Source: Ampullaceana balthica
Lineage: Eukaryota > Mollusca > Gastropoda > Lymnaeidae
NCBI GenBank assembly: GCA_944989445.1
Contig: CALYLW010000124.1
Coordinates: 64,501-128,500 of the forward strand
DNA: 64,000 nucleotides
Direction: 5' to 3'
Under the pieces are notes generated by a model, which saw only the letters and a list, made by a program, of their open reading frames with translations, made no database searches and was not told the origin of the DNA. Below are positions 24,620-48,591 of this stretch, piece after piece. The position numbers and the translations under genes are program-made. Position 1 is the stretch's first letter, and each line of letters starts with the position of its first letter.

Positions 24620-25765
24620 ACTTTTCATCATTAGTCATTTGGAAAATGCCTGAACTACAGCATATGGATGCAGCAGTTGCTAACAGGTTTATTTCTAGCC
24701 TCAGCAAATCACTTCAGGCCTTGTGCCACGGTTGTATGGAATTTGATTCTGGCATTGAAATTGTAGGTTACATTAATGTCAACATTGATAGTGGAAGCAA
24801 AGTAGACTATGTACTTAATGAAAAGGTACTAAAAAGTACTACAAATTCTATGACATTTGTGAGCAATAGCTTTCTTGCAAAAAAGGATCAACCTAAACAG
24901 ACTCGTGATGGTGCCTGTTCACCTGTTTCAGACACCGGATCGCAAAATCAATACCCAAGTCGTTTCAGAGGCTCATTTCATGGTTCAAGTTCATTTTCTC
25001 AGTCATATGTTCTTAGAGGTTCTCAAAAACGTTCAGCTGGAATGGAAAGAGATTGGAGATCTCCAAAAAAGCTTAGAGGCGGTAGACATCAATACACATC
25101 TCTTCATGAATCTTCATCTTCCACTGCAGGCATACCATTTCCTTCACTCTCATCAGTTGATGGCAACTTTAAATCTCCAATGAATCAGAGTACTGATATA
25201 ACTAGTGATGAAGGACAAATAAACATTAAGAAAGAGATTTTAGATAGTGATAATAAATCTGAGTTTCCAAACGATCCAGATCAATCAGATCAGAATCAAG
25301 ATTTATCATCTATTAAAAGAGATCCTGATGCATCAATGCTTGGTGAAAATGAAACATCCGATGAACCTTCTGATGCTACCGACAAAGAATTTAAAGGAAC
25401 ATTTCTTCAGCCCTCAACATCTGCAGATCATCAATTAGAGGAAGGATCTTCAGATGTTAACAGCCCAAGCGCAGAAAAACAAAGTTCTTCACTTTCAAAG
25501 TCGTCAGACAACTCTGCTTCAGTAAAACCAAGAAGAGTTTCAAATACAAGTCCTGTTGATGAAAGGGGTGTATCAGAGGATGCACCAGCAGAAAATATTG
25601 CCTCTGGCTCAGAAGTGCCTGAGTATGATGAAGCTGGTGAAGAAGGTGCATATGATCAGTCAGGTTATTCTGATCCTGGAGAAGGCTCTAGTGATGCCGG
25701 TCAATTTGAAGTAATTGAAATTGATGATGAAGATGAAGACGTGCAAGCTATGTTTGCAGAATCTC
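24620..25765 (+). CDS. Common coding exon of the zinc-finger gene (shared N-terminus)
   Basis: The acceptor is CTTTAG at 24619, the start ATG is at 24646 (A at -3), and the donor is C/GTAAGT at 25766. It encodes 373 residues. Residues about 7-65 look folded and slightly hydrophobic (AVANRFISSLSKSLQAL ... VDYVLNEKVLK); I do not recognise a family and see no BTB/POZ, SCAN or ZAD signature. Residues about 85-155 are Ser/Arg-rich with a basic KKLRGG-type stretch (possible NLS). The remainder is Ser/Asp/Glu-rich and probably disordered. IKKE (about 194) and IKRD (about 223) fit the SUMO acceptor consensus. VIEIDDEDED (about 356) fits a SUMO-interacting motif followed by acid. An open frame upstream to 24508 exists but is AT-rich and precedes the acceptor, so it was not used. 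The shared exon probably provides localisation and cofactor binding, while downstream exons provide DNA binding. Confidence 0.8.
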
Positions 25766-25771
25766 GTAAGT
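25766..25771 (+). other. Shared splice donor feeding all 25 alternative exons
   Basis: GTAAGT, a near-ideal donor, lies directly after the acidic end of the common exon. If it is not used, the frame runs on for 54 more residues to a stop at 25927-25929, giving a finger-less protein of 427 residues. Confidence 0.75.
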
Positions 25772-25929
25772 TAAATTTTCTTTCTTCTGAATTTAGTGGT
25801 ATTTATTACTTAAAAGATTATTGGTACTTCAAAAAATGTAAAATTCTGTTGGAAATAAAAAGAAATAACATTAGTATTTTTAAACCATCAGTAAGAGGAA
25901 ATGAGGTCATTATAAATCTTTATTTTTAA

Positions 25930-26459
25930 GTAATAATACCACTTCTTAATGTTTGTCTTTGGGGTTATTTTACAAAATATCAGTTCTTCATTGTGCATCT
26001 GCTGCTATCCTATTTTTCCTTATTCAAATTGTACTACTGTTTTTAACTTGAAAAGCCAAGAAAAATAACCTGGATTTTATTATTATTGAATCTATTCAAA
26101 ACTTTTAAGGGATTTGCTTGTATGTCATTTAAAGTTTAAAAATCAGAACCAACATTTGCAATATATTTTTTTTAAAAATTAGTTCATAGACTAGTTTTTG
26201 CCTCAAAGGTTTCAGGTGCAATAATTATTCATTTAAATTTGCTGAATAGCCTTGTTCTTTTTTTTTCCATCCATTTATCTATCTTTTCAAAATAATCCAT
26301 GCTTATTTCGAAATTATTTTTGGGCAAGCATGTGATATTGAAATTAATAAATAAAAGGTTTTATGTTACCTATCAGCTATCAAGTAAAAAAAAGAGGATT
26401 AATTGCACTAGTTTCCTCGTTTCGTGTTATGGTTGAAACTTGTATCAAAAAGAGTGCTA
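25930..26459. other. Start of large intron, no feature
   Basis: AT-rich intron sequence between the common exon and the transposon nest. I see no exon or RNA gene. Confidence 0.4.
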
Positions 26460-26530
26460 GAAAATACTAGGGACCAAGGGGAAACCGCACCGGACATTCG
26501 CCCCAGCCGGATATCGGGTTTTTCGGAACT

Positions 26531-28436
26531 ACCATATTTTCACGCATATTCCCTGCGAGTTATACCAGATTTTACAAACCCCGAACCCCCCCTGCGGGGT
26601 ATCTGAATTTTTTTTTACTGAATAATGAATCAATGGCACTATTACTTACAAAACACGAATATAAAATTAGATTCTGTATAACTTCTGGTATTATACGTGT
26701 CTCCCCGGTTAACCTCGGAATCGAATAGTCCAGTTTAAACCGGTTTGGAAGCAATTCTTGTTCATGTCGTAAATCGAATGTTTTGTATAACGACTGCAGT
26801 TGTCTGATGGTACGGTGTACAGGAAAAAATAGTGCACACTTGTTTACGTTTAGCCAATGGAATAAAATATCAAAATTATAATTTTATAATTATTTATAAT
26901 ATTTTTATTAAAATAAACAATTACTTTTTAAGTAATAAGAGATATTTTTGTATGCATGGTATTGATAGAGTTGTGAAAATATAGTACGGTAAGTACATCT
27001 CCTAGAGTGGTTCATCGTAAGGTTGTTAAGACCGATCGTTTTTGAGGACCGGTTAGCCGTTCAAAAAAAGACCGGTTAACAGCAAGTCCTTATATGCCTT
27101 ATGTTTTGAGAACCAACGAGTCAATGTTTTTTCGCCTCGCGTCGTCTGATGGTGGCATCAGAGCCCGATTCCCCTGCTGGCGTTCAGCTCTTTTTTGTGA
27201 CGCCCTCAAGTCAGCGAATTTTTAAAAAAAATTTAAAAAATATTTTTTAAAATTCAAAGAATTAAGTAAACAGTGATGGTTAATAGCCAATTTTTAAAAA
27301 AAATTTAAGACTCGTGATTAACCGTTCTAAATAAGAGGTCCGGTTAAACCTTTAGTTAAAGTTAGCGAGGTATTTTTCATAAGTTTAAAAAACCCACTCC
27401 TCGCCTCGTTCGTTGGGACGTCGTGTGACTCTCCTGTGTTTTGTGCGTGATGCCGGTCAACTCTGATGCGGTCAACTCGCGAATTAAAATTAATAATAAA
27501 AATAAAATTATAAAGCTTACAGAGTAAACAGTGATGATAAAATGGAATTTGTTTAAATTTGTTTTTCAATCGTCAACTCGCCAGAATTATTGAATTTTGC
27601 GGCGCACACGACGTTCTCATTTTTCCTGTTGAAATAGGGTTAGATCTACTCTCACGGTACTCCCCTTCCAACGCATAAGAATTACATTTTTTAAAAGAAA
27701 ATATCAGTTTTGATATTAATGTGGTAAGCTTACGTCAAATGCCTTTGACTTGCAGGAAATTTGTCACTAAATGACCGAACTCGAATTTGAGAACCGATTA
27801 ATCGCCCGGTATCTTTGCTACGTCTATCAAATGACTTGTAGATACTTCACTAAGCGGCTCGCGCCGATCAATTATTTTGATGCGGGAAACAGACTATAAA
27901 CCGGTGACCAGAGAATGCCGTTAGGTCACGGGGTCATATGGTTTTATAGCTTTCTTTGTCTTTATAAGAAAACGGCTATAATTAATATAAATAGAAACAG
28001 TCGCGGCCTTGACTGTTGTTGACATCAAACGCGCACTGTGTGTAGCTTTCGGACAGTGCCTCGACTACTAAGCAAATTCTTTAAAAAAACATTCTTTAGC
28101 CGTAGGCGAACTAAACTAATAGTGATGACGTGTATATTATTTATATACCCGGAATATGGAGAAAGCGATTTGATGTCACCGTCGCTCGCGTTAGTCTCGT
28201 ATGCTGCCCTGCATCTTAACAGTAAATTTGCGGTTAACCGATCCTGATTAAATAGGACCGGTCCTGATCTGAGGACCGGTTAACCGTTAACAACCTTAGT
28301 TCATCGTGATATGATTGTGCAGGGTATAAGCGTGGGCGGGTTATACCACAATTTTTTTACAGGATCTAAAAATTCTGCGGGGTATATGCGTGGGTGGGTT
28401 ATCTGCACGTGCAGGGAATATGCGTGAAAATATGGT
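26531..28436. mobile_element. Nested element with perfect 26-bp terminal inverted repeats
   Basis: The left end 26531-26556 (starts ACCATATTTTCACGC) is exactly the reverse complement of 28411-28436. No clear target duplication next to these ends. No coding capacity. Subterminal GGGTATATGCGTGGG-type repeats near the right end. Confidence 0.7.
27018..28298. mobile_element. Innermost hAT-like element, 1281 bp
   Basis: Ends TAAGGTTGTTAA / TTAACAACCTTA with an exact 8-bp target duplication GTTCATCG (27010-27017 and 28299-28306). Subterminal copies of GACCGGTTAACCG-like sequence on both sides. No transposase. Related fragments start near 22015, 23940, 24270 and 52208. Confidence 0.78.
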
Positions 28437-29228: not shown

Positions 29229-30687
29229 ATATTTAATATCAACCACTGGCATTAAAACAGGGTATGGTTTCTTTTGTTATTCCTTGAGATCAGACCTGAT
29301 CCAGATACATTTTTTAAATTATGGATATTTAGAATAGCAAGGTACCAGTTACTTTTTGAATGTAACTATAAATTTATAGTTTTGGAATGAAATAAATAAT
29401 AACTTTTAATTGTAATTTTAAAAGAAAGCACCAAAATCATTTTACCATCTCATGTTTTTAAGTCAACAAACTATAAAAACAAAATTGAAGCACACTGTAC
29501 CAAACAAGCAATCAAATAGTTAACACCCCGTCCCCCCTTTTCCGGTCAAATTGCCAGTAGAGAATTATACAAACTTTCTTAACTTAAAACATTTTTTAAA
29601 AAAAATGTCTTTCCCATACAGTTGACTCCTTCAAATTTGTTTTTTTAAACATTTGTTTCATAAATTCTTAAAATTAAATTTCTAATTTATATCAAGACTC
29701 CCTTATACAAAGATTTACAACATTCCATCATCAGATGCACGATGAAAGCACTGAGCTTGGGTATTTTAAATAAATACAAATTAAAAAAAACAAAACAAAC
29801 AAAATAACATAGCCTGTATATTTTAAGTCTATTTCCCTTTTTTTTTAAAATGTCTGTTACGCTACTGTATTTATTAAAATGTATATCTTTATTATTTTTT
29901 TTACCTTTATACTTTTGCAATCAAGCCTATCAATTATTACAAAAATGCAACATAATCTGTCCTCATTTAACAAATATTTCTCAAACCCAATTATCTTGAT
30001 TAATAAAAAAATTTATGTGCACTTTCCAGCAATTTTTGTTTTGATATAGTTATCTATAATATAAATTTTGTTTTATGAGAATTGTACCTTTTTATATTTT
30101 ATAGAACAAAATATGACATGAATTTTGTTTTTAATTTAATCCAAGAGTTAGTGTTAAACTTATTTTATTTACAATTGTTCAAATTATGTATTTGATGAAT
30201 ATCCATTGATTTGAAACAATAAATTCTGTGTTTTATACAAAGGTTATACCTTATGTAAGTGATATTATTTGCCAATTGCTTATTTCAAATTTATTGTTTT
30301 TCCAAAGTAATATTTAAAAATGTTTTATACACATTCTATGGAAATTACCTATCTCATATTTCGGTTGTTTGTTTTTGTAAGTATAATTTTTTGCAAATTA
30401 TTTTTGAGTGTGTGCATTTATAATTAATATGCATAATTTATCTTATTGTCAGCTGTAAAAACTAAATAATGTTTTATTTTAAAATAACATGATCTATGGG
30501 TATTAATAATTACTTTATATATTGCATTTTTTTGTTTCTTGTTAATGTAGAAGCTATTGGTTTCAGCATTTATACTTGTTATCCACACCATAATGGCCTG
30601 TTAAATTTTGTGTCTTCTTACTAGTCTTATTGTGATATTTTTGCGTCTTGTTAGCAATTGGGTGTATCTACAATTTTCTTATTTCAG
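29229..30687. other. Intron sequence before the finger array
   Basis: AT-rich, with no open finger-coding frame, no tRNA and no recognisable transposon. Serves as the last part of the intron from the common donor to exon 1. Confidence 0.4.
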
Positions 30688-31148
30688 ATATTTCACAAGA
30701 CTCGTTAACTTCCTCTAAACTCGTTGGCTCACATCACTTTGGCAATCATAAAAAGAAACCATTTCCTTTCATGCCTCAACATCAGTTAAAAGACTTGCCA
30801 TCTTCTTCAAATTCATCACATTCTTTTATTGGGACAAGTGTCCAGATTCCTTCAAAAGCTGAGTGTCCTTTTGATGAAACAATACAGCGTTATATCTGTC
30901 CCATCTGTTATCACAAATATTTAACATACTCCTCGCTTTGCAACCACATGAAGTTCAAGCATATGGGATTATTCGAAGTATATTGTGAAATATGTGGAAA
31001 AGGCTTTCAGCGCAGAGTGCATTTGGAAGGACACATGGCTATGCACGGAAAACCTATGAACTTTGCATGCCATATCTGTGGAACTAAATATGCTCATAAA
31101 ACATCATTGCGTGCACATGAAAAGCTAACTCATGGAATATTATCGTAA
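30688..31148 (+). CDS. Alternative terminal exon 1 (three C2H2 fingers)
   Basis: The acceptor is TTATTTCAG at 30687, and the first codon is completed as CAT (His). Encodes 153 residues, so the isoform would be about 526. Fingers begin CPICYHKY, CEICGKGF and CHICGTKY, all C-x2-C-x12-H-x3/4-H. The fourth CCHC finger found in most sister exons is missing; the exon stops just after the third finger (GILS). Finger 2 carries QRRVHLEG in the recognition helix instead of the usual YSxSGL, making this the most divergent module. It is the first in the array, about 4.9 kb from the common donor. No AATAAA was seen in the following 220 bp. Confidence 0.85.
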
Positions 31149-31365: not shown

Positions 31366-31868
31366 AGCAATATGTCAATCAGAGTTCTACTGGAGCAACA
31401 GGGTCTGTTCCATTCAGGATGGGTCGGACCTCAAGGCATAATTTGTCTTTCCAATCAAAGTTTTCCCAGGGGCTTACCTTAGATGAGTCATATCCCTCTT
31501 CCTCATCATTGGATCATTTAAATCTTCCCACTGAACAATCATCTTATGAATGCAATATTTGCAATACTGTTTTTGATAATAGACTTTATTACCAAAGGCA
31601 CATGAATAGCCTGCATAGAGAGTCAAAGAGTTTGCCTTATATTTGTTCTCACTGCCATAAAGGATTTTTCTCAAAAGTTGGATTGCATCAACATGAAGTG
31701 CAACATACAGGACAGATGTTTCATTGCTCATGGTGTAGCTCTAAATTTACATTTAAGAGGAATTTGAATCGTCATATAGAAAATCAGCATGGAACCAAAC
31801 ATTGTAGATATTGTGGTGTCAACTATAATATTCAAGGAAGCTATGCGCATGAGTGTTCAAATACATAA
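31366..31868 (+). CDS. Alternative terminal exon 2 (three C2H2 fingers plus degenerate fourth)
   Basis: Acceptor TTATTTCAG at 31365; split codon CAG (Gln). Encodes 167 residues (isoform about 540). Fingers begin CNICNTVF, CSHCHKGF and CSWCSSKF. The fourth, CRYCGVNY, ends H-E-C, with far too short a spacing between the last two ligands, so it may be a broken finger. Finger 2 is followed by the HTGQMF linker rather than TGEKP. AATAAA at 31932-31937 can serve as poly(A) signal, 64 bp after the stop. Confidence 0.86.
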
Positions 31869-32021: not shown

Positions 32022-32578
32022 AAGAGTATTGCAGTCAAATGGGGCAAAGACAGATTCATCATCCTTCAGTTGCAGAAGAAATTCACCCGAACCGTAGAAA
32101 TATGCTTGCCTCTAAATCTAGCATGACAATTTATACTGGTGCTGAATCTCAGATGCCTGATATGGGATTGTCAAGCTTTAATGCTATAAATGCATCAGAC
32201 ACTGATCAGTCAGCATTGCTGAAGTTTGGATGTCAGTATTGCTTTAAACAGTTTGATACAAAAATGATTTTAAACAGACATATGAAAGATGACCATCATG
32301 GACTACAAGCTTCATATCCATATAGTTGTACAGAGTGTGGAAAGGGTTTTTTCTCATATTCCGGACGCAAACATCATATGGAAAGTCATTTCGTCAAATC
32401 AGAGTGTACGTTTTGCGGCCACACGTTTAAGTACAGCAGAAATTTGAAGCGGCATATTGAAATTAACCATAACATGAAAGAGTGTAGACAATGCAAGAAT
32501 TATGTAAGCAGATATGATTTTGACGGTCATGTTCTGATTTGTACAGGAGTGTCCTTAACAGAAGCAGCAAGGCAGTGA
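32022..32578 (+). CDS. Alternative terminal exon 3 (four-finger module)
   Basis: Acceptor TTGTTTCAG at 32021; split codon CAA (Gln). Encodes 185 residues, the longest module (isoform about 558), because its pre-finger region of about 75 residues is long and Ser/Gln-rich. Fingers begin CQYCFKQF, CTECGKGF and CTFCGHTF (the last following a short HFVKSE linker), then the CCHC finger CRQCKNYV ending HVLIC. Finger 4 lacks the EYNQ box seen in most others (DFDGH instead). No canonical poly(A) hexamer is obvious nearby. Confidence 0.87.
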
Positions 32579-32721: not shown

Positions 32722-33260
32722 GTGTTAATGGTATCAGTCATCAAAGAAAGCATCTACGAAAACGACGTCCATTCAGCTCCACATCACAAATACTTCATGG
32801 TCTTTGCCATCATACACAGACCCCAGAGCTACACACTCAAATTCCTTTTAGTGGTGAATCTGGACAGTCCCTGCGCAGCTCAGTGGACATTTGTGCTATA
32901 TGTAGAATTGCACTTCCCTTTGGTATTACTTACCAATACCACTTTAATGAAGTTCATGCTATTGAATCTCCTGGTGGCCTTCTAAGTGGTATAGATCCTT
33001 TTGCTTGTAACATTTGCTTCAAAGGATTTGCAACTAAGGAGAGATTACGCCAACACAGTTCTGTGCATGACACAACAATTTACTCATGTTACATTTGTGA
33101 TGTAAAATTCAAGCATAAGAAAAATATTGGACGTCATTTGGAAAGTACCCACGGATTGAAAAAATGCATGTATTGTATGGCTCTATTTAAGAAAGGAGAC
33201 GATTTTAACAATCATATTTTGGGTTGTGATACATCAAAAGAAACTGGCATTCATTCATAG
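32722..33260 (+). CDS. Alternative terminal exon 4 (four-finger module)
   Basis: Acceptor TTGTTGCAG at 32721 (the -3 base is C as usual, the rest of the tract is weaker); split codon CGT (Arg). Encodes 179 residues (isoform about 552). The pre-finger region is strikingly basic (RKHLRKRR), a likely NLS. Fingers begin CAICRIAL, CNICFKGF, CYICDVKF, then CCHC CMYCMALF ending HILGC. The gap between fingers 1 and 2 is longer than in other modules (ESPGGLLSGIDP). AATAAA at 33411-33416. Confidence 0.87.
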
Positions 33261-34128: not shown

Positions 34129-34658
34129 GAAGAAGATCTTCCTTCGCAAGTCAAGCTCCTTCCCAACACTTTAAGAATACATTTGATCAGCTTGGGCCTA
34201 ATCACTCATTAGTGCATTCCCAAGCAAACTATTTTGGGTCCCACCATGACAGTGCTGCAAATTTTGTCAGCACAGACACTTTTAGAAGTTCTGAATCATC
34301 AGTACAATGTTCTTTCTGTGACTGCAAACTTGATACGCGTGGGATGTATCAAAAACACATGAATGAATGTCATAGAGAGAAAAATGCCTTGCCTTTTACT
34401 TGTTCAATGTGTCAGAAAGGATTTTTCTCACTGACTGGATTACGGCACCATATAGAGGCACATAATGGGAGGCAATTTGTCTGTGCTATATGTGATGCCA
34501 GATTTCAACATAAACACAATTTAAAGCGCCATGTATTGGGTGTCCATCGGCTACAAGAATGTCCCAATTGTACAACAACGTTGCCAGCTGGACCAGAATA
34601 TAATTTACACCTCTTACGATGTGGAACAGATGTGACAGATAGGAAACTTTCACATTGA
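34129..34658 (+). CDS. Alternative terminal exon 5 (four-finger module)
   Basis: Acceptor CTGTTTCAG at 34128; split codon CGA (Arg). Encodes 176 residues (isoform about 549). The frame is open upstream of its first in-frame start-like codon back to the acceptor, which supports use as an internal coding exon rather than an independent gene. Fingers begin CSFCDCKL, CSMCQKGF, CAICDARF, then CCHC CPNCTTTL with EYNLH and a final LLRC. The spacer before it (33261-34128) is the widest in the first half of the array. Confidence 0.88.
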
Positions 34659-34853: not shown

Positions 34854-35359
34854 GCACCAAGGAGACTGGATGCAGAAGAAAGATACATAATATGAATCTA
34901 CCAGGAAACAAACTTTGTATACCTACTGACTATACAAGTAAATTTAGAAGTGATCATTCAAGCTATAACTTTAATTCCAGAGCATCAAATGATACCAACT
35001 TAAATCAAGACTGTGCCACTGACCAACCAAACAAGTGTCCTTACTGTTTGATAACAACGCATACTCGTACACTTTTGCAGAGGCATATGTCAACAAATCA
35101 TGGTGAACAATTGCCCTTTTCCTGCTCACTTTGCTCTAGGGGATTCTATACTCAATCAGGTCTTCAAAGGCATATAAAAGATCATGATGCTGCCTCCTTT
35201 TCCTGCATGTACTGTGATCTACAATTAAAACGAAAGCAGTATCTTGTTAAGCATTTGAAAGCTGTCCACAAACTTTTACCATGTCTGTATTGTTCATCTA
35301 CATTTAGTATACAGCAAGAACTGAACCAGCATCTTTTAAATTGTGGAAAAAAGTTCTAA
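34854..35359 (+). CDS. Alternative terminal exon 6 (four-finger module)
   Basis: Acceptor TTTTTTCAG at 34853 preceded by a long T-tract; split codon CGC (Arg). Encodes 168 residues (isoform about 541). It starts TKETGCRRK, so it is again basic directly after the junction. Fingers begin CPYCLITT, CSLCSRGF, CMYCDLQL, then CCHC CLYCSSTF ending HLLNC. Finger 2 has SRGF in place of GKGF. No canonical AATAAA seen before the next exon. Confidence 0.88.
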
Positions 35360-35558: not shown

Positions 35559-35935
35559 GTGCAGGTTTAAAGCATGCATTTGACAGACCTCGCACATCAT
35601 CATCCAGAATATCTCATGATTCATTACCAAGTCAAGATGGGATATTTCCCAATATTAGTTTATTAGAGAATAGCACTTGCACATTTTGTGGACTTCTACT
35701 CTCAACACCTTTTCTGTTGAAACAGCATATTTCATACAACCACAGTGAGCGTTTACCATTTAGCTGTGCACTTTGTGGCAAAGGATTTATAAGCTATTCT
35801 GGACTTCGTCATCATAAACGTACGCACTTGGGATGGTTATTCCCTTGTGATTTTTGTGGAGCCAAATTCAAACATAAGCATCATATGAAAGATCACGTGA
35901 AAAAATTCCACACTGAATTTTTGAATGGCTCATAA
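35559..35935 (+). CDS. Alternative terminal exon 7 (three fingers, fourth lost)
   Basis: Acceptor TTTTTTCAG at 35558; split codon CGT (Arg). It encodes 125 residues, the shortest module (isoform about 498). Fingers begin CTFCGLLL, CALCGKGF, CDFCGAKF; the protein then ends TEFLNGS, exactly where the CCHC finger would start. The following exon shows the same loss, so the two may descend from one truncated ancestor. Confidence 0.87.
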
Positions 35936-36075: not shown

Positions 36076-36473
36076 AGATGATCAACCCAGATGCTAAAAG
36101 TTATTTTCGTCATGACAATTTGCAAACCAGCCCTGGTCATCCAGCAAGATTTATGGCTTACATAGGCAAACTGAGCTCTCCTGAAATGTCAAGAGATTAC
36201 TCAAACTTTTATGTGTGCTCCTTTTGTAAAACACAACATATTACATTGGCCTTGTACAAGCAACACTTGTCTTATTACCATGGTGATAAGCTACCCCACA
36301 GTTGCTCTATCTGTGGCAAAGGATTCTTTTCCAAGTCGGCACACTATCACCACAAAAGAGCTCACGAAGAGAGAAAATTTGAATGTCATGTTTGCAGTTC
36401 CAAATTTGTTATGAAACATCATCTAAAAATGCATTTGATTGGTGTTCATAAACTAGTGGTTGAAAATTTGTAG
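36076..36473 (+). CDS. Alternative terminal exon 8 (three fingers, fourth lost)
   Basis: Acceptor TCATTTCAG at 36075; split codon CAG (Gln), then ATG as the first full codon. Encodes 132 residues (isoform about 505). Fingers begin CSFCKTQH, CSICGKGF, CHVCSSKF; ends KLVVENL without a fourth finger. Finger 3 has KHHLKMH as in the KHHL-type exons 7, 20 and 22-25. The ATG just after the acceptor could in principle start a finger-only protein from a local transcript. Confidence 0.87.
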
Positions 36474-36684: not shown

Positions 36685-37199
36685 GAGCAAAGTATTCATC
36701 GACCCAAAATAATCATCCAGGGATCATGAGAGCTACTTCTTCAAGAACACTTTATCCTCACTCAGGAGATGAATCATCAGCATATGAAACATTTCCTTGT
36801 TCTGATTCATTAGATTTACCAACTATTTTACAATGTCCACACTGCTCAGAAACATTCCTCGAAAATTCAGCCCTTAAGGCACATCTCTCTCAGTATCATG
36901 GGCAAAATATGCCTTACACCTGTTCATTATGTGGAAAAGGTTACTACAGTGCATCAGGTCTCTATCGGCACATTCGAGTCCACAAAGGAAAAATGATTAT
37001 GTGTCCAGTTTGCGATTCTAAATTTACCCAAAGCAGTGCTCTGAAAAGGCATTTAATACGATCACATGGCCTTATTCCTTGTAATTATTGTAAGCTTATT
37101 TTGAGACTGGGAACAGAATACAATCAACATATCCAACTATGTTGCCATTCAGTTCAAAAGGACATCAGTAGTCTTGACACATCTTTATCATTAAAATAA
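36685..37199 (+). CDS. Alternative terminal exon 9 (four-finger module)
   Basis: Acceptor TGTTTCAG at 36684; split codon CGA (Arg). Encodes 171 residues (isoform about 544). Fingers begin CPHCSETF, CSLCGKGY, CPVCDSKF, then CCHC CNYCKLIL ending TEYNQHIQLC, close to the consensus of the array. It continues for ~20 residues past finger 4 (SVQKDISSLDTSLSLK). Finger 1 (LKAHLSQYHG) closely resembles that of exon 10, pointing to a local duplication. AATAAA at 37687-37692, far downstream in a 700-bp spacer. Confidence 0.89.
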
Positions 37200-37899: not shown

Positions 37900-38384
37900 G
37901 AAAGTCACACAAAACTTCAAGATGGAGTGGTGGAGATAATATAAGACTCATTAATTTTCCCGGAAGTTCTAGGGGCACTGCAGTCCCATTTAACAATATG
38001 GAATCATCAAGGCTCTTTTCCAATTTAGTAGACACAAACTTGTCTTTGCCATCAATTATTTGTTGCCCCGTTTGCCAAGAGACATTTTTGGATAACGGAA
38101 GCTTTAAAGCACACATGTCGCAATATCATGGAAATGAGATGCCTTTTACTTGCACACTATGTGGTAAAGGCTATGCAAGCTTTTCTGGCCTCTCTCTTCA
38201 TTTGCAAGTTCATGAAGGAAAATCCTTTCTCTGTCCTGTTTGTGACTCCAAATTTACACAAAATAGTACAATGAAAAGACATTTGAGGATGGTGCATAAA
38301 ACAACACAGTGCTTGACTTGTAGAAATATTTTCAAACTAGACTCACAGGAATTTCAACAACATATTTTGACTTGTGGTCGATAA
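37900..38384 (+). CDS. Alternative terminal exon 10 (four-finger module)
   Basis: Acceptor TTGTTTCAG at 37899; split codon CGA (Arg). Encodes 161 residues (isoform about 534). Begins basic (KSHKTSRW). Fingers begin CPVCQETF, CTLCGKGY, CPVCDSKF, then CCHC CLTCRNIF with one extra residue before QQHILTC. Finger 1 and finger 3 are close to exon 9; finger 2 matches the SGLxLH type of exons 11-13. AATAAA at 38478-38483, 94 bp past the stop, is well placed. Confidence 0.89.
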
Positions 38385-38550: not shown

Positions 38551-39017
38551 AAAGAAAGGTTAGACGTCGAATGAGGTTAGGCGATAAAGCCAAAATGACA
38601 AGTAGTTACTCAGGGCTCAATGTGCCTTTAACTAAATACAATTACCCATATGAATCACCTAGTGGCTCTACTCTAAGTAATGACTCTGTTTTAGGCTATA
38701 ACTCTCTTGTGACAAACAAAATTCAATCTGATGGAGTTTTTCAAAATGATCCTCTCTTACTACAGTCTCATCAGCCAATGCCATTTAATTGTGACATCTG
38801 TAGAAAAGGATATGCCTCTTATACTGGACTTTTTTTGCATATGCAAACACATCAAGGAAAATCATACATGTGTCCAGTGTGTTCTGCAAAATTTACTCAG
38901 AGAGGCACTATGAAAAGACATTTAAAGATGATACATTCTAGTCTCCAATGTCGCACTTGTGAGGCTGTGTTGTTAATTGGATCTGTTTTTGAGCAGCATA
39001 CATTAAATTGTGGTTAA
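38551..39017 (+). CDS. Alternative terminal exon 11 (finger 1 lost)
   Basis: Acceptor ATTTTTCAG at 38550; split codon CAA (Gln). Encodes 155 residues (isoform about 528). It starts with a very basic RKVRRRMR stretch (likely NLS), then a Ser/Asn/Tyr-rich region with no cysteines where finger 1 should be. It retains finger 2 (CDICRKGY), finger 3 (CPVCSAKF) and the CCHC finger CRTCEAVL ending HTLNC. The MPFxC linker before finger 2 is intact, so only finger 1 has gone. AATAAA at 39297-39302. Confidence 0.86.
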
Positions 39018-39583: not shown

Positions 39584-39969
39584 GAGAACTGCCATCATCT
39601 TACAGAAATTCATATAGTCATCAATATAAAATGAAGGAAGGTCGACATGCCTGCATGTACTGTCCAGCACAGTTTTCGTCTACAAGTGCTCTCAAAGCTC
39701 ATATTATGGAATTTCACAATAATGTGCTGCCTTATGTATGCACAGAATGTGGAAAAGGATATCTTAGTTCGGGTGGCCTTTATCTCCATAAATTGACTCA
39801 TGAGGGAAAATACTACCTTTGCCCTGTCTGTGACTTAAAATTCGCACAAAACAGCAGTGTAAAAAGGCACATAAGAAGATCTCATTCATGCATCCCTTGT
39901 GGGAATTGTTCTGTTGTTTTTCCTATCGGGGACGAATATAACCACCACGTTTTGTTTTGTCATAAATAA
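39584..39969 (+). CDS. Alternative terminal exon 12 (four-finger module, short lead-in)
   Basis: Acceptor TTGTTTCAG at 39583; split codon CGA (Arg). Encodes 128 residues (isoform about 501) because only ~22 residues precede finger 1. Fingers begin CMYCPAQF, CTECGKGY, CPVCDLKF, then CCHC CGNCSVVF with GDEYNHHVLFC. Finger 2 (LSSGGLYLH) and finger 4 (FPIGDEYNHH) are closest to exon 13. Confidence 0.89.
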
Positions 39970-40227: not shown

Positions 40228-40667
40228 GTAAAATTTCTAGGCATGAAGGCCACTGTAATCCTACTGATATTCGCTCACAACTAAATCAGTCGAAAAGATT
40301 TTCTCAGGACCACTACTCCACTTCACAATCAGTAACAGATATATATCAGTGTATTCATTGCTCTACAAAGCTGGCAAATGCTGCATTTCTAAAAGCACAC
40401 ATAGAAAGAGCACACCAGAACACTATGCCATTTTGTTGTTCATTGTGTGGGAAAGGCTATTTGAGCTCTACTGGTCTGTATCTTCACATGCTTTTGCATG
40501 AAGGAAAATCATATCAATGTCCTCTATGCCATTGGAAGTTTTCACAAAAGTGCAACTTGAAAAGACATTTGATGAGAGTTCATCATCGAAATCAATGTTT
40601 TATTTGTTCTAAAATATTTCCTTTTGGACTTGAGTATGATCATCATGTTTTGCAATGTAGAAAATGA
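40228..40667 (+). CDS. Alternative terminal exon 13 (four-finger module)
   Basis: Acceptor TTATTTCAG at 40227; split codon CGT (Arg). Encodes 146 residues (isoform about 519). There is no ATG until 40425, within the finger 1-2 linker, so an ATG-based ORF search would miss finger 1; the open frame back to the acceptor restores it. Fingers begin CIHCSTKL, CSLCGKGY, CPLCHWKF, then CCHC CFICSKIF with LEYDHHVLQC. This exon shows clearly that the modules are spliced, not separate genes. Confidence 0.89.
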
Positions 40668-40799: not shown

Positions 40800-41287
40800 A
40801 CAAATATTCTCACAGAAAAGAAAATAGAGAAGGCTCAGTGATTTCTCAATTTCAAGGTGCTACAAGTCAACAAAAGCAATTACTTCAGCACTCTGGGACA
40901 TTATCTGAAACTTCACTACTGTATCCACATGAATCACATAAGAAACCTTTTGTATCTAAAGGAATGGTCCAATGTCAACAGTGTTCAAAATTACTTCTGG
41001 ATGAATATTACTTGAGATGTCACATGTCAGAAAAGCATGGGGATACAATGCCATTTAAATGTTCTTTGTGTGGAAAAGGATATCAAACACAGATGGGCTT
41101 AAGCCATCATAAGCAAGCTCATAAAGGAAAAACTTTCATGTGTCCTATTTGTGATTCAAAATTTACTCAAAAATTTACAATTAAAAAACATCTAAGAAAC
41201 ATACATATGTCAATGCAGTGTACTTCCTGTTCTCTAATACTGAAACTGTCAGAATACAATCAACATGTATTAACTTGTCCACCTTAA
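40800..41287 (+). CDS. Alternative terminal exon 14 (four-finger module)
   Basis: Acceptor TATTTTCAG at 40799; split codon CAC (His). Encodes 162 residues (isoform about 535). Fingers begin CQQCSKLL, CSLCGKGY, CPICDSKF, then CCHC CTSCSLIL; the fourth finger is one residue shorter than consensus (KLSEYNQH, lacking the Gly). Pre-finger region is Gln/Ser-rich. Confidence 0.88.
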
Positions 41288-41449: not shown

Positions 41450-41898
41450 GAGAAAAATTTAGAAGAAATCTCTCTGTCCATCATGTGTCATCGTCAAATT
41501 TTCCAAAAGAATCTTACAAAACTGATCCTGTATCAACTGGCAGTATCTTCAAAAGTTTTAACGGTGAAAAGAGATTTCTCTGTCAACACTGCCCAGAAGA
41601 ATTCCCCAATTTTACCTCTCTTACTTCACATTTATATGAGAACCATGGCAAGCTATCCCCTTACCTCTGTTCATTATGTGGTAAATCATACAGCACATCA
41701 ACGGGTTTAAAGCACCATTTGGAAGTCCACAAAGGAATAAATTTTCTCTGTCCAATCTGTGACGCTAAGTTTACAAGGAAAGGAACTGTGAAAACACACT
41801 TGAAAACCGTTCATAGAGCATCACAATGTATGAGCTGTTCAAAGATATTTCGTTCCGATAATGAATTTCATCAACATGTTTTAAACTGCAAAAATTGA
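41450..41898 (+). CDS. Alternative terminal exon 15 (four-finger module)
   Basis: Acceptor TCATTTCAG at 41449; split codon CGA (Arg). Encodes 149 residues (isoform about 522). Fingers begin CQHCPEEF, CSLCGKSY (Ser replacing the conserved Gly of GKG), CPICDAKF, then CCHC CMSCSKIF with NEFHQHVLNC. Finger 3 has KGTVKTH helix residues, different from the common KxxLKRH. AATAAA at 41923-41928, just 25 bp after the stop, implies a very short 3' UTR. Confidence 0.89.
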
Positions 41899-42010: not shown

Positions 42011-42531
42011 GACACTCCTCCTCGGATCAGTCCACAGCAAAGGTTGAAAGAGCAACAAGTTCATCAGTTTTTGGAGAAAAGAATTATAAACAAACAAATA
42101 AGGTGAACAAGTCGTCTTTAGGGGGATCATTACAAGAAAGGTTTCCTTGTCCAAACTGCTCTTCAAAACTCCAAGATGAAGCCACATTTAAAAGTCATGT
42201 TGAAAAATGCCTTGAATGTTCAGAGTGTGCAGTAGTGTTTCCCAGTAAACACGACCTCAAAGTTCATTTGTCACAAGAACATGGCAAGTGCATGCCCTTT
42301 TCATGTCATCTCTGTGGCAAGGGTTATCAAAGTGCCATGGGATTAACTTACCACATGCGTGCCCATGAGGGAAGATTTTATCAATGCCCAGTTTGTGATG
42401 CAAAACTTACTCAGAAAAGTTCCATGAGGCCTCACCTCAAAAAAGTTCATGGTGTTGCCCAATGCAGTGTGTGTTCTGGAATATTTCGACTTGGCCTGGA
42501 ATACAACCAACATGTTTTATATTGTGTTTAA
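42011..42531 (+). CDS. Alternative terminal exon 16 (five fingers)
   Basis: Acceptor CTTTCTTTCAG at 42010; split codon CGA (Arg). Encodes 173 residues (isoform about 546). It is the only module with an extra finger: a CCHC finger CPNCSSKL ending HVEKC comes before the usual set CSECAVVF, CHLCGKGY, CPVCDAKL and the CCHC CSVCSGIF with LEYNQHVLYC. The extra finger looks like a copy of a finger 1 whose last His became Cys. Fingers 4 and 5 resemble exons 17 and 18. Confidence 0.88.
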
Positions 42532-42671: not shown

Positions 42672-43108
42672 AACTGAAAATTAATAAAAGAATAAATCAT
42701 GATCATCAATCAAGATCTTTAGGGGAACCATCGGCTTCAACTGGACAACTACTTAATTCTTCTCCTACAACACCTGGGAAAAATTTTCAATGCCAACATT
42801 GTCCTAAGACTTTCTGTGATGAAAAATCTATACAGTTCCACATTTCACAAAGCCATTGTATTAAAATGCCTTATGAGTGTCATCTTTGTGGAAAAGGCTA
42901 TAGAAGTTTACCAGGCCTGCAGTACCACCTAGAGGTCCACAAGGGCACAACATTTTCTTGCCCTATCTGTGATGCAAAGCTGTCACAAAAAACCAAATTA
43001 AAGAGGCATCTTCAAAATCTACACAATTGTTCTCCATGCTCTATGTGCAATCAAATTTTTCGACTCGGTGTTGAATACAATCAGCATGTGTTGCATTGTA
43101 ATAAGTAA
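42672..43108 (+). CDS. Alternative terminal exon 17 (four-finger module)
   Basis: Acceptor ATCTTTCAG at 42671; split codon CAA (Gln). Encodes 145 residues (isoform about 518). No ATG before 42866, inside the finger 1-2 linker; the frame is open back to the acceptor, restoring finger 1. Fingers begin CQHCPKTF, CHLCGKGY, CPICDAKL, then CCHC CSMCNQIF with VEYNQHVLHC. Starts LKINKR, mildly basic. Confidence 0.89.
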
Positions 43109-43326
43109 AACATTGTCCATTCTTAAAAATATTGTGGCCTGGCATGCATGAATTTATATAATTATAATCATTAAATTATGTAATGTATATGTTTTGGAGT
43201 AAATGTTTTCTCATAGTAGCCTTGAAATGTGAATATAGTATATGATGACGTGTGCTTTTTTTATCAAAATGATTTTAAAATTCAAGGAGAGGAAAGTTGA
43301 ACATTGCCAACATTTTTTTATTTCAG

Positions 43327-43793
43327 GAAATAATACACCTGAAGCATCAAAATTCACAAATAGTGCTACAGTTGATAGATCCTCAACATTTGCATCTCAT
43401 TACTCATTGCTTCCTGGAAAAGCCTACAAATTATTGGGAGATGGATCGCTGACTACCCAAGTTAATTTACCATGTCCTCACTGCAAAGCTGAATTTACAT
43501 CCTCCATGCTTAGACAACATTTATCGGAAATTCATGGACATGACATGCCTTTTCAGTGCACATTATGCGGAAAGGGTTTCTACAGTGTTTCTGGCCTGAA
43601 TCACCATAAAAGAAAACACGCAGGACAGACATTTTTGTGCCCCATTTGTGATACAACTTTCACTCAGAAAAGCAAAGTAAAGAGGCACCTGAGAAGTATT
43701 CATGGATGTATCCCCTGCTCAACTTGTCCAGGAATATTTCGAGTCGGCCAGGAATATGATCTCCATGTATTGCACTGTCCTGATACTAAATAG
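43327..43793 (+). CDS. Alternative terminal exon 18 (four-finger module, short finger 1)
   Basis: Acceptor TTATTTCAG at 43326; split codon CGA (Arg). Encodes 155 residues (isoform about 528). Fingers begin CPHCKAEF (only 11 residues between the second Cys and first His, one fewer than normal), CTLCGKGF, CPICDTTF, then CCHC CSTCPGIF with QEYDLHVLHC. The same one-residue deletion in finger 1 occurs in exon 19. Confidence 0.88.
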
Positions 43794-43954
43794 ATATAGT
43801 CTTGCTTACCTTTGCTCACCAATTACTTTTGTTAAGTTGAACACTAGTTTCACCTTGTAAGGCTAAACAACCACCTTGGTCTTTGAACACATTTTCTCAA
43901 CTCAAAAACAAGAAAAAATGAGAGATTGAACTATAAATTTATTTATTGTTTCAG

Positions 43955-44421
43955 AGCAGCAACATAAAGGAAGCAAACTGTTGGACAAAGTCACTCGATT
44001 CAGTTCTACATCTGGTTGTTCTAAAGAAGTCAGTTTACATGGAGCTTATAATGTCAAAGAACGTTATGATCAGTTTCCATTAAGGACTGAAACATCTGAT
44101 TGGATTAAATGCTCTCACTGTGGGGAAGACATGAGTAAACTTATGCTGCGAGCACATGTTTCTCAGTTTCACTCAAATGAAATGCCTTTTCAATGTCAGC
44201 TTTGTGGTAAAGGGTTTTTCAGTCTATCTGGTTTGAATCACCACCTACTTGCTCATGAAGGAAGAAAATTCATGTGCTCGATTTGTGACTCCAAATTTAA
44301 ACAAAAAGCACACCTGAAATCTCATCTAAATAATGTTCACAAATTGGCGCAGTGTCCCACTTGTTCACAATTATTTAATGTAGGAAAAGAATTTAATCAA
44401 CATTTGATACAGAATCATTAG
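43955..44421 (+). CDS. Alternative terminal exon 19 (finger 4 of C2H2 type)
   Basis: Acceptor TTGTTTCAG at 43954; split codon CAG (Gln). Encodes 155 residues (isoform about 528). Fingers begin CSHCGEDM (short, 11-residue spacing as in exon 18), CQLCGKGF, CSICDSKF and CPTCSQLF. Finger 4 keeps the EFNQH box but ends H-x4-H (HLIQNH, the final His directly before the stop) rather than H-x3-C, so it is a classical C2H2 finger. A 680-bp spacer without a finger exon follows. Confidence 0.88.
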
Positions 44422-45101
44422 AGCTTTGGAAACATAATTAGTAGTTTTAGAGCACAGTTGATAATACAACAAAATACACATTTCAACTAAGATTACTAAG
44501 AATCTATATTTTAATAATAGACAATGCAGATATTAATTTCTGAAAATTTTATTAGCATATGAAGATTCTCTTTCTGATGAGGGTTCCACTACTATAATTA
44601 GTGTTTGTTTTACCATATAATCATAATAACAATAGTTTAAAGCTTTTCATGTTTGTTTTTTGTATAATTTTTCTCAAATTTTCTACTGTGTTAAAATGGG
44701 ATCACATGTATATGTACTTTTTTCACCGTTTACTTGTAATTGTATTGCTTTTGTAAAGAATTTATCATCAAAATTAACATCAATATTATGTATTTTTAAT
44801 CTGAGTAATTTTCTTAATTCTTTGAATAATGGTGCTTTAAGGTTTATCATGTTATGTCATAAATAACTTTCTTAGTTTAGGCTTGAATGTACAATATAGG
44901 GATATTTTGTTTTTAAAATCAGGCTGCCACAAAATGATTTCTAGATTTCTAAGTAATTTATTTATTTTTAGGCAATGATAAAGAAATTATTTTAATCTTG
45001 AAACATTTGCATGACTTGGTGACTGACAGCTTTGAAATAAGTAAGGAGTCTTCAAACAAAGGTAGAAACATAATGTGATACATTATTTAACTTTGTTTCA
45101 G
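44422..45101. other. Array spacer between exons 19 and 20
   Basis: 680 bp, no finger code. An acceptor-like TTTTTAG at about 44970 opens only seven codons before a stop, so it is not an exon of this type. Confidence 0.4.
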
Positions 45102-45556
45102 ACCCAGTATCCATGTTTCATCAAGAACCACCAAAGGTTTTTCCCAAATTTATGGAGCAAGGCAATTCACAATTGTTAAACATATCTGAGACTTTTCACT
45201 GTCAGTATTGTTCTAGTGTTTATAATGATAAACACAATTATAGAAAACATCTTTGTGAATCTCATGGAGACTTAATGCCTTTCTGTTGCAAAGTTTGTGG
45301 GAAGGGCAGCTTTAGCCGTCAAAATTTAATATTTCACATGCAGGGACATGAGGGCAGGACATTTGTCTGTCCAGTCCTTAACTGCAATGCCAAGTTCAAA
45401 CTAAAACATCATCTTCTGCGTCATGTTAGAACACTTCATTCTTTGCATCAGTGCTCCAAATGTCTTGTAGTATTTAGAGAAAGTCATATTTTTTTGGGTC
45501 ATTTATCTGCTTGTAAAAATACTTATTTATCTACTTCTAAAAATACTTGTGTTTAA
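45102..45556 (+). CDS. Alternative terminal exon 20 (finger 3 with C-x4-C)
   Basis: Acceptor TTGTTTCAG at 45101; split codon CAC (His). Encodes 151 residues (isoform about 524). Fingers begin CQYCSSVY, CKVCGKGS, CPVLNCNAKF (four residues between the cysteines instead of two), then CCHC CSKCLVVF ending HLSAC. The C-terminus carries a Lys/Thr/Ser tail containing a near-duplicate peptide (KNTYLSTSKNTCV). Finger 3 has the KHHLLRH helix. Confidence 0.87.
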
Positions 45557-45929
45557 CTTTATTTTGTATAGTAAGTGTTTAAAATAATATTTTAAAAAAA
45601 AATGTAAATGATTATGACAATATGAATATGATTGACAGTTTTATTCCATTCTCTTGTTAAAATTAAAGATCCTATATGCTGTATAAAGACATTTTTGTAT
45701 TCATAATTGTTTTGTAAATACGTTAATGAATCTTAATTGATTCACCATGATTTGGTATATATTTCATTGGTTTTGAAATTATAAAGGAAGTTGATCTATG
45801 AGAGCTAGTCGGAAAGTTAACAAGTTTCAGGATGATGTACCAACTGAGCCTCTAGGATTTTCACACAATCTATTAGTTATTATTGTGATAGTGATAGCTT
45901 CAAAGAGATTTTTCTTTTGTTTATTGCAG
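45557..45929. other. Array spacer between exons 20 and 21
   Basis: 373 bp, AT-rich, no finger remnant and no canonical poly(A) hexamer seen. Confidence 0.35.
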
Positions 45930-46360
45930 GATTTCACAAACACAAAAAAGGGCTTGCAAATTATATGGAATCTGTTTCAACACCAACATGCAGTGCATCT
46001 TCATTTGTACATCAGCCTCTCCCTAGAGACACAGGTTATGAGCAGTATCTAAGCGGATCAAATATTTCAGCGAAGGATTCTGCTCAAAATTTGCCTGGTT
46101 CTCAATTGCACAGTTGCGACAAACCTTATTCATGTGCTATTTGTGGGAAAGGGTTTTACTCTTCCACTGGATTTAACTTACACATGCAAGCCCATAAAGG
46201 AAGACAGTTTATGTGCAATATATGTGACTCCAGATTCAATCAGAAAGTTCATCTAAAAACACATCTTAAAAAAATTCACAAGCTGGCTCAATGCATGTTG
46301 TGTTGCCATGTATTTGGTATTGGGGATGAATATAATCAACACTTAATGAACTGTAAATAG
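45930..46360 (+). CDS. Alternative terminal exon 21 (finger 1 lost)
   Basis: Acceptor TTATTGCAG at 45929; split codon CGA (Arg). Encodes 143 residues (isoform about 516). The lead-in (FHKHKKGL, then Ser/Thr-rich) has no finger 1. Fingers present begin CAICGKGF, CNICDSRF and CCHC CMLCCHVF with GDEYNQHLMNC. Fingers 2 and 3 are closest to exon 19. It shares loss of finger 1 with exon 11, probably independently since the flanking sequence differs. AATAAA at 46481-46486. Confidence 0.87.
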
Positions 46361-46578
46361 TTGGATATGCCATGATTTTTAAAAAAAAATATCTATGTGA
46401 ACACTCAATTTTATTAATATTTACTGAAAAGGATTGTTTTAAATATTGTTTCTGTTATTGCTTGTAATTTTTATTTCATAAATAAATAACTTCAAACTTT
46501 TTTGTGTTACTTTTAAAAATCTGTAATTTTGAAAGCTCAGAATTTCAGTTTCCCATCAAATGTCTTGTTTTATTTCAG

Positions 46579-47000
46579 AACGTTGCTCTGTTAAACAAGG
46601 ACACATTCCCCATGGATTTAACTCATTTCCATCATCTGTATCTGGAGCCCAGAATTATTTTGATGAGGATGTAGTCTCTTGCTTACACTGCCCACAACAG
46701 TTCCCATCAGTAAAAATTTATAAAAGACATTTGTCTGAACAACATCCGGATACATTACCTTTTAGCTGTACAATCTGTGGTAAAGGATTTCACACAAAAA
46801 CAGGGCAGAACACCCACATGCTGGCACATGATGGCAGGACATTTTCTTGCTGTGTATGTGTAGCAACCTTCAAGCTGAAACATCATTTGAAAAGACACTT
46901 AAAAATACACGGTCTCTCACTGTGTGGAAAATGTTTGGCCACATTTAGAGATGTTCAAGAATTTAACCAGCATTTAGCACAATGTGTTTCATATCAATAA
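46579..47000 (+). CDS. Alternative terminal exon 22 (four-finger module)
   Basis: Acceptor TTATTTCAG at 46578; split codon CAA (Gln). Encodes 140 residues (isoform about 513). Fingers begin CLHCPQQF, CTICGKGF, CCVCVATF (adjacent cysteines and H-x3-H), then CCHC CGKCLATF with QEFNQHLAQC. Finger 2 has the TKTGQ helix shared only with exon 23, so these two are probably recent duplicates. AATAAA overlaps the stop (46996-47001), and another lies at 47054-47059. Confidence 0.88.
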
Positions 47001-47102
47001 ATATACAACTTCTCTTAAACAAAAAGTATCTTAAGTGAATGTTGCACTTGACTAATAAATCCATAAATATAATGCTCCATTGATAAAATTATTTTATTTC
47101 AG

Positions 47103-47491
47103 AGATTAATCAAGTGCAGGTTCACCAAAGGTTGAACCTATCATCTGTGCAACCTCTCCGATGTATGAAGTGCCTTGCGCATTTCTCAACTCTGAAAATG
47201 TACCACAGGCATTTAGCTGAAATTCACCCAGAGACCCTGCCCTATTCTTGTAGCATTTGTGGTAAAGGCTTTCAGACAAAGACTGGCCAACAAATTCATG
47301 TGCAGGCTCATGCTGGAAGATTATATTTGTGTGGGATTTGTGATTCAAAGTTCAAGCGTAAACACCACTTACAAGAACACACGAAGAGACTCCACAACCT
47401 CATTCAGTGTGGTAGATGTTTGGCCACTTTCAGTGATCAACATAATTATAATCAACATCTTCAGTCTTCATGTACAGCTTTCTTAAAATAG
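47103..47491 (+). CDS. Alternative terminal exon 23 (four-finger module)
   Basis: Acceptor TTATTTCAG at 47102, only 102 bp after the previous stop, the tightest spacing in the array; split codon CAG (Gln). Encodes 129 residues (isoform about 502). Fingers begin CMKCLAHF, CSICGKGF, CGICDSKF, then CCHC CGRCLATF ending H-x4-C. The TKTGQ helix of finger 2 and CGxCLATF of finger 4 match exon 22. The intervening spacer must hold both the poly(A) site of exon 22 and the branch site for this exon. Confidence 0.88.
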
Positions 47492-47664
47492 CTGGCAGTT
47501 TCTTCTAGCATTTTAGCGACCAAATCAAAACTTAATGTTGCAGGATTTTTGTATTACTCTATTTTTGTAGGCAGGTAGATTGCAAAAGTATATCATTACC
47601 ATACCACAAAGTGACTCTTCATATAACCTTTCAAGATGATTTGACTAAAAAAATTTCTTTTCAG

Positions 47665-48089
47665 AATCCAAGGCTGCTATAAATATTAACGCACAGATGA
47701 GGCATATAGATCCGCATTTTTCACCTTCAAGTTCATCTTATAATAGCTCTGAGCATCCACTCCAGTGTTTATACTGTTCAGTTATTGTTCCTAATAGAGC
47801 AGTATACCAAAAACATTTGTTGCATTATCACCCTGAATGCAACTCTTTTCCTTGTGGCTTTTGTCTTAAATCTTTCAAAAATAAATACAGTCTCCGTACA
47901 CACATGATAAATCACAGAGAAAGAAGGTTCAGTTGTGTTCTTTGTGATTCAAGATTTAAACTGAAACACCATCTTAAGAAGCACATGAAGTGTGTACACA
48001 AAATGTTCCAGTGTGGGAGGTGTATGGCTAATTTTCTGGATGCTGAGGAATTAAGCTGTCACCATCAGTTTTGTGGTGGCACCGTTTGA
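47665..48089 (+). CDS. Alternative terminal exon 24 (four-finger module)
   Basis: Acceptor TCTTTTCAG at 47664; split codon CAA (Gln). Encodes 141 residues (isoform about 514). Fingers begin CLYCSVIV, CGFCLKSF (the GKGF box replaced by LKSF), CVLCDSRF with KHHLKKH, then CCHC CGRCMANF ending HHQFC. Finger 2 helix KNKYSLRT is unlike other exons. No AATAAA before the next acceptor 80 bp downstream. Confidence 0.87.
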
Positions 48090-48169
48090 ACTAAAAGCAA
48101 GGAGACATATTATACTCATTTTAGGATACTTTTTTAAATTTGTCCATAAAAAGACTTTCTGTGTTACAG

Positions 48170-48591
48170 GAAACAGGTTTGTTACTCCACTGGGACCTCA
48201 TCATTCTCAACCACTTCAAGGATTATTTGGTTCGTCTGACGGAGAACAATTCAAGTGTGACCTTTGTTCACAAATATTTCCATCTTGGGTCTTCTATCAA
48301 CGTCACATGTCAACCTACCATCCTGTAAACAAGCCTTTCAGCTGTAAACTGTGTGGAAAAGGATTGCAGACCAAAGGAGGGTTGTACCTTCACATGGCTA
48401 CCCATGGTGATAGGAAATTCACCTGCTCTGTGTGTGGGTCCAAGTTTAAGTTTAAACACCATCTTAAGAAACACCTAAATGGTGTCCACAAGATCACAGA
48501 AGCCCAGGTAATGTCTTGCCCTACATGTTACTTGGTCTTTCAAAGTCAAGAGGAGTATTGGCAACATATTATCAACTGCAAGCCAAACTAA
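48170..48591 (+). CDS. Alternative terminal exon 25 (four-finger module, last in array)
   Basis: Acceptor GTGTTACAG at 48169, the least typical of the 25; split codon CGA (Arg). Encodes 140 residues (isoform about 513). Fingers begin CDLCSQIF, CKLCGKGL, CSVCGSKF with KHHLKKH, then CCHC CPTCYLVF with EEYWQHIINC. Finger 3-4 linker is longer (HKITEAQVMS). Poly(A) signals at 48770-48775 and 48849-48854. No further finger exon is visible downstream. Confidence 0.88.

Follow-up and report, generated by a model that had tools for sequence, protein, structure and literature searches.

Two Drosophila genes, longitudinals lacking (lola) and mod(mdg4), are the best insect parallels for a locus that we analysed in the gastropod Ampullaceana balthica. 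For lola, at least 20 isoforms are described in which a BTB common region is followed by unique C-terminal exons, spliced in cis and in trans, and C2H2 and C2HC fingers are mentioned among them (PMC1947980). For mod(mdg4) the count is at least 31 isoforms, which have BTB and for the most part FLYWCH as well (PMC4667647). The snail locus lies in a 64,000-nucleotide (nt) stretch of contig C124 (CALYLW010000124.1, positions 64,501 to 128,500; hereafter the window), which belongs to an assembly of 1.097 Gb in 3363 contigs. It consists of one shared exon followed by 25 exons encoding zinc fingers, and we consider it very probable that the latter are spliced on singly, giving a predicted 25 transcription factors with a common part and different DNA-binding ends.

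The snail locus resembles lola in that a single locus combines one common N-terminal part with many unique C-terminal exons, most of which encode zinc fingers; with mod(mdg4) it shares a common 5' exon and variable 3' ends carrying a zinc-finger module. Behind one donor the alternative C-terminal exons are numerous, and every one brings a finger module and a stop of its own, which is the arrangement of the lola and mod(mdg4) type. By contrast, lola has BTB in its common part and some trans-splicing, whereas the snail shared part has no Pfam match, and mod(mdg4) has BTB, FLYWCH and certain variable exons that lie on the other strand, whereas the snail fingers are C2H2 and C2HC and lie on a single strand. 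Unlike lola, the snail has at least four arrays per genome, and the species named among the homologues listed are all gastropods. Because BTB is absent at the Pfam level, we do not class the snail locus with lola and mod(mdg4).

A six-frame regular-expression scan of the 64-kb window identified 25 open reading frames (ORFs) with C2H2 fingers, all on the + strand and all within 30636-48591, and none on the − strand. The exons that contain them (Table 1) form an array at 30688-48591, with an intron of 4.9 kb between the shared exon and the first finger exon; exons take up 64% of this array, and the spacers from each stop to the next acceptor measure 80-868 nt. At every one of the 25 exons, two bases remain after a pyrimidine-rich AG acceptor, matching the phase-1 donor of the shared exon, and the shared exon joined to each of them remains open to that exon's own stop, for predicted proteins of 498-558 amino acids (aa). 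From the stop frequency of the region, the expected probability of 120 open codons is ~0.001. A simple score blind to phase placed the best acceptor in the correct phase for 23/25 exons. As a chance control we shuffled a paralogous 50-kb stretch 20 times, and finger ORFs of at least 60 aa, counted on both strands, numbered none in 18 shuffles, one in one and two in one. The original prediction, made from the letters of the window, had posited a common 373-codon exon with a phase-1 donor followed by 25 one-strand exons, each with an acceptor, an open frame, fingers and a stop, and both elements were borne out. Tblastn with the last 260 residues of 250 homologues longer than 300 aa (out of 305 fetched) matched solely the shared exon and these 25 exons; since the window gave no further matches, the 25 are the complete set by this test. 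The finger module is of the ordinary C2H2 kind, and its fourth finger is C2HC-like in many exons; Pfam (9/25 exons) returned C2H2 families and, among the matches listed at E up to 0.1, no FLYWCH. This refines the earlier description of the module as different from those of the insect parallels.

A homologue search with the shared part, proposed with the original prediction, returned gastropod relatives. Among the best 120 of 146 matches, record P0001 of Lymnaea stagnalis consists of a shared part 90% identical to that of the window followed by a tail matching E09, and the records of Physella acuta, Biomphalaria glabrata and Aplysia californica have a single shared part joined to varying tails that match window exons. 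The orthologous locus is LOC106060397 in B. glabrata, LOC131937624 in P. acuta and LOC101862600 in A. californica, each present as computed models only, under best-hit names such as 'myoneurin-like', with isoform numbers among the matches listed up to X25, X25 and X28, respectively. Reciprocal-best partners were identified for 22/25 exons among 26 tails of B. glabrata, for 11 among 13 tails of Physella and for 12 among 27 tails of Aplysia. All exons except E13 (24/25) have such a partner in at least one of the three species, and because the matches considered were the best 120 of 146, exons without a partner may have unlisted ones. These reciprocal partners suggest that most of the array is probably older than the divergence of these pond-snail families and that part of it probably predates the separation from Aplysia. 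Open frames, phase match, a single strand, short spacers and gastropod records with varying tails all support the proposal that a genome outside the insects has one locus with a shared non-BTB part and alternative finger ends.

We then compared the residues predicted to contact DNA, taken as the four positions of each finger to which contact is classically assigned. Between orthologous exons, contact residues were identical at 68.1% for B. glabrata, 68.8% for Physella and 60.1% for Aplysia, versus 62.3, 61.7 and 44.6% at other finger positions. Among the window exons, 22.6-24.3% of contact residues were identical versus 29.2-30.4% elsewhere in the fingers, and the contact sets were distinct in all 25. 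The fingers encoded by the window exons therefore likely recognise different DNA sites.

Further records also join the shared part to fingers. Four unnamed contigs of 1.6-2.2 kb (P0103, P0113, P0119 and P0120) carry a shared part and fingers, and because of their length they leave no room for a kilobase intron; their shared parts are 38-45% identical to that of the window. The label 'lgn' denotes assembled sequencing runs. At a paralogous locus of Arion vulgaris, whose records are presumably transcriptome-derived, P0184 and P0185 have 327 identical residues in a run and then unlike finger tails, and P0208 and P0209, likewise from a paralogous locus, have 309 residues in common and then fingers in one and a basic tail in the other. 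The short contigs and the Arion pairs represent relatives or paralogous loci, and we infer splicing in the window species. A profile search with 200 aa gave 85 matches, and all 8 that bear a species name are gastropods, including the caenogastropod Nucella lapillus. A restriction of the family to gastropods is unproven, since full-length proteins of other molluscs would not pass the length filter of this search.

The shared exon encodes a conserved N-terminal domain of ~80 aa, then a weakly conserved linker with IKKE (K195) and IKRD (K224), and an acidic VIEIDDEDED close to its end. By the usual SUMO motif definitions, psi-K-x-E and psi-K-x-D/E sites together with an acidic [FL][ED][VC]IE[IV] stretch are retained in 29/29 aligned sequences, including the window. 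Pfam matched no family in the window shared exon (E up to 10), and BTB was absent from 7/7 shared exons of the genome at the same level, in agreement with the earlier remark that no BTB is visible in the shared part. Neither fold comparisons nor PDB sequence profiles gave a convincing relative of the N-terminal domain, and BTB was not among the fold matches listed. Within the first intron, at 27000-28300, a GGACCGGTTAACCG-like word is repeated by eye, perhaps from a mobile element.

The locus does not stand alone: the genome has at least four such arrays, and other gastropods have related loci. We identified six more copies of the N-terminal part in the genome (10 candidates scored) and examined 240 kb of DNA around them. 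The N-terminal ~80 aa and a [VIL]KxE motif close to the shared-exon end are present in 7/7 shared exons, and a finger array follows on the same strand in 4/7. Non-overlapping finger ORFs on that strand, counted as ORFs and not tested exon by exon, number 19 in C67, 35 in C170 and 37 in C822 (284 kb), or 116 with the window. A phase-1 donor at the shared-exon end was read in 4/7 copies (window, C67, C170 and C822 at 284 kb), and L004, the one other copy scanned for it, showed none at its end. In the three paralogous arrays, the best acceptor fell in one common phase for 16/19, 29/35 and 35/38 ORFs, as counted before an additional stretch was included and overlapping ORFs were merged. The isoform number of a paralogous locus reaches X37 in automatic gene models.

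In a tree of the 116 exons, the nearest neighbour lay within the same locus in 82 cases and within two places in 56, versus ~16 expected. Because the nearest neighbours lie mostly in the same locus, the arrays probably expanded as finger exons were duplicated in tandem behind one shared exon. Nearest-neighbour pairs also linked the window with C67 (19 cases) and C170 with C822 (11 cases), while 4 exons crossed these two groups; this neighbouring suggests that whole loci were duplicated too. Tails of other gastropods matched the sister arrays reciprocally in Physella (LOC131934882, 14/16; LOC131946536, 6/6; LOC131940994, 6/6), B. glabrata (LOC106079054, 10/11; LOC106064207, 12/12), Aplysia (LOC101845285, 6/17), Bradybaena (13/16) and L. 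stagnalis (2/2). If gene numbers follow the chromosome, as this comparison assumes, the gene numbers of the land snail Bradybaena similaris track, by best hit, the order of C170 for 9/9 matched proteins, one more protein being unmatched, and for 6/6 in a second copy, and track the order of C822 in reverse for 5/5, two of them with near-tied best hits. In this species P0190-P0205 form two C170-type array copies, on contigs of 157 and 124 Mb, that are annotated as many separate genes with a common start.

We weighed several other explanations for the window. Tandem clusters of finger genes are common among animals, and the 25 exons could be independent single-exon zinc-finger genes that by chance lie behind a separate gene. 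We regard this as barely credible and reject it: methionine is missing between acceptor and first finger in 10/25 exons and back to the upstream stop in 8/25, where the ORF has none ahead of its fingers, the spacers are as short as 80 nt, an in-phase acceptor is present at 25/25 exons, and the orthologues from named species carry the shared part. P0001 and, at paralogous loci, the pairs in which two tails follow one shared part contradict it. A different possibility is trans-splicing, with the finger exons transcribed separately and then joined to the shared exon, as has been documented in part at mod(mdg4) and lola. In the window, the 25 exons are all on the same strand as the shared exon and span no more than 23 kb, their spacers leave scant space for 25 promoters, and we judge trans-splicing distinctly unlikely.

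It is also conceivable that only part of the 25 exons is used, the others being relics or spliced at the level of noise. E13, without a reciprocal partner in the three species, and the 12/25 exons that alone have Aplysia partners would fit this, but all 25 frames are open and 24/25 are matched by a reciprocal partner in one or more of the species, which makes partial use fairly unlikely. Finally, the locus might be a true orthologue of lola or mod(mdg4) whose BTB exon has diverged or is missing from the assembly. The architecture is similar, and the C170 fingers (C2HC then C2H2, by eye) resemble those of lola, but the predicted homologues begin at the shared exon, mostly with MPE, and BTB is found in none of the seven shared exons by Pfam; orthology is in our view very improbable. 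Because the predicted homologues begin there, no upstream coding exon is implied.

Several observations weigh against the explanation that we favour, in the window or across the family. In the window, the simple score favours an acceptor in another phase in 2/25 exons, poly(A)-signal hexamers up to 300 nt from the stops are not enriched (12/25 versus a background of 0.49), and no selector or docking k-mers like those of mutually exclusive exons rise above shuffles. The number of psi-K-x-E sites in any single protein does not exceed that of shuffled sequences, and the excess of contact identity between orthologues is significant for Aplysia only (p 0.0009; B. glabrata 0.067, Physella 0.11). The RefSeq isoforms are automatic models. 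At the sister loci, homologues of the C170 and C822 classes have ~60-70 additional shared residues ahead of the tail, the other three copies of the shared exon, all in C822, have few finger ORFs in the stretches examined (Table 1), and near one of these low-finger copies there are non-finger exons in two pieces that match the tail of P0238.

A second shared exon probably lies between the first shared exon and the fingers in the C170 and C822 classes, and because of it the phase fit in these arrays would not be to the first donor. The tail of P0238, a relative of an L006-like record, matched two places in L026 and the L006 copy region (tblastn), and because of these matches the L006 copy probably uses a non-finger end. 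The B. glabrata record most like L006 is named isoform X32. P0083, P0095 and P0209 have a shared part that ends in a basic R-x-Y-R tail, a second kind of alternative end. When non-finger tails were used in tblastn, P0083 and P0095 matched the shared part alone and P0209 and P0002 matched nothing, and scanning the paralogous stretches for a strict motif gave no non-finger ends, although the scan required the motif twice and would not have picked up P0209 itself.

For the 25 exons of the window, alternative splicing from one shared exon would most likely start at a single promoter upstream of 24620. Transcription would run across the whole array, each mature mRNA would take one terminal acceptor in cis, and cell types would differ in the terminal exon that they use. 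The N-terminal domain of ~80 aa may serve self-association or cofactor binding, and the retained psi-K-x-E sites could, with the SUMO-interaction-like VIEIDDEDED, gather co-regulators. More tentatively, and at somewhat less than even chances, the gastropod loci may together constitute modular transcription factors that evolved independently of lola and mod(mdg4) with their own N-terminal domain, with more than 100 alternative DNA-binding ends per genome, a handful of SUMO-responsive shared parts and a combinatorial code for cell identity.

We found no paper that describes this snail family in titles and abstracts, a search whose coverage excluded subscription papers and preprints, and a literature search with six LOC numbers of the family likewise found none. 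The earlier claim that no description was known holds for the literature searched and fails for automatic gene models, which exist for the orthologous and paralogous loci. Because of those models the isoforms are not wholly new; the family, its scale, the kept order and the non-BTB shared part appear to be undescribed.

Outside the locus, the + strand has exons of a methionine-aminopeptidase-like gene at 2908-3724, with a Peptidase_M24 match at 3458-3724; the piece at 2908-3231 has no Pfam match and is presumably part of this gene. A Ty3/gypsy-like pol at 15588-18267 (+) matches reverse transcriptase, RNase H and integrase, each in a frame of its own, and an RVT_1 reverse-transcriptase fragment at 19281-19652 (−) perhaps belongs to a non-LTR (long terminal repeat) element. 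A BED zinc-finger ORF at 52418-52675 (+) is perhaps of hAT-like transposon origin. An open frame of 1063 aa at 59826-63017 (−) is rich in lysine and glutamate and coiled-coil-like by eye, has no Pfam match and lies where GC skew and AT skew are strong. Related ORF pieces (VRKYSCIIP and VQREMF motifs, by eye) flank the locus at 11059-11337 (−) and 54143-54727 (+) and may be a duplicated gene or element.

Table 1. Shared exon, donor and finger exons of the window (positions in nt of the window), and C822 copies of the shared exon with few finger ORFs nearby
Feature	Position	Strand	Remarks
Shared exon	24620..25765	+	Acceptor ending 24619, ATG 24646, 373 codons + 1 nt
Phase-1 donor GTAAGT	25766..25771	+	Protein change point of orthologues falls here
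E01	30688..31148	+	C2H2 fingers; reciprocal-best partner in B. glabrata, Aplysia
E02	31366..31868	+	Reciprocal-best partner in B. glabrata
E03	32022..32578	+	Reciprocal-best partner in B. glabrata, Aplysia
E04	32722..33260	+	Reciprocal-best partner in B. glabrata, Physella, Aplysia
E05	34129..34658	+	Reciprocal-best partner in B. glabrata, Aplysia
E06	34854..35359	+	Reciprocal-best partner in Physella, Aplysia
E07	35559..35935	+	Reciprocal-best partner in B. glabrata, Physella, Aplysia
E08	36076..36473	+	Reciprocal-best partner in B. glabrata, Physella, Aplysia
E09	36685..37199	+	Acceptor set from L. stagnalis homologue; tail of P0001 at 94%; partner in B. glabrata
E10	37900..38384	+	Reciprocal-best partner in B. 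glabrata, Aplysia
E11	38551..39017	+	Reciprocal-best partner in B. glabrata
E12	39584..39969	+	Reciprocal-best partner in B. glabrata, Physella
E13	40228..40667	+	Best match of B. glabrata P0032, not reciprocal
E14	40800..41287	+	Reciprocal-best partner in B. glabrata, Physella, Aplysia
E15	41450..41898	+	Reciprocal-best partner in B. glabrata, Physella
E16	42011..42531	+	Reciprocal-best partner in B. glabrata, Physella
E17	42672..43108	+	Reciprocal-best partner in B. glabrata
E18	43327..43793	+	Reciprocal-best partner in B. glabrata, Physella
E19	43955..44421	+	Reciprocal-best partner in B. glabrata, Aplysia
E20	45102..45556	+	Reciprocal-best partner in B. glabrata, Aplysia
E21	45930..46360	+	Reciprocal-best partner in B. 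glabrata
E22	46579..47000	+	Reciprocal-best partner in Physella, Aplysia
E23	47103..47491	+	Reciprocal-best partner in B. glabrata
E24	47665..48089	+	Reciprocal-best partner in B. glabrata, Physella
E25	48170..48591	+	Acceptor set by reading the sequence; starts 80 nt past E24 stop; partner in B. glabrata
C822 copy L007	113.6 kb of C822		Few finger ORFs nearby
C822 copy L004	131.7 kb of C822		Few finger ORFs nearby
C822 copy L006	238.8 kb of C822		Few finger ORFs nearby

If the proposed splicing is correct, snails acquired the arrangement of one shared part and many DNA-binding ends with no BTB domain involved, and the scale, with 116 finger ORFs behind four shared exons, would exceed the 20 and 31 isoforms of lola and mod(mdg4). 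The exons, and their order in one array, have been retained across snail lineages. The same reading would account for the misleading labels 'myoneurin-like' and 'ZBTB-like' that snail databases contain, and a role in cell or neuron identity would become testable in Aplysia and Lymnaea, whose identified neurons are open to sequencing one by one.

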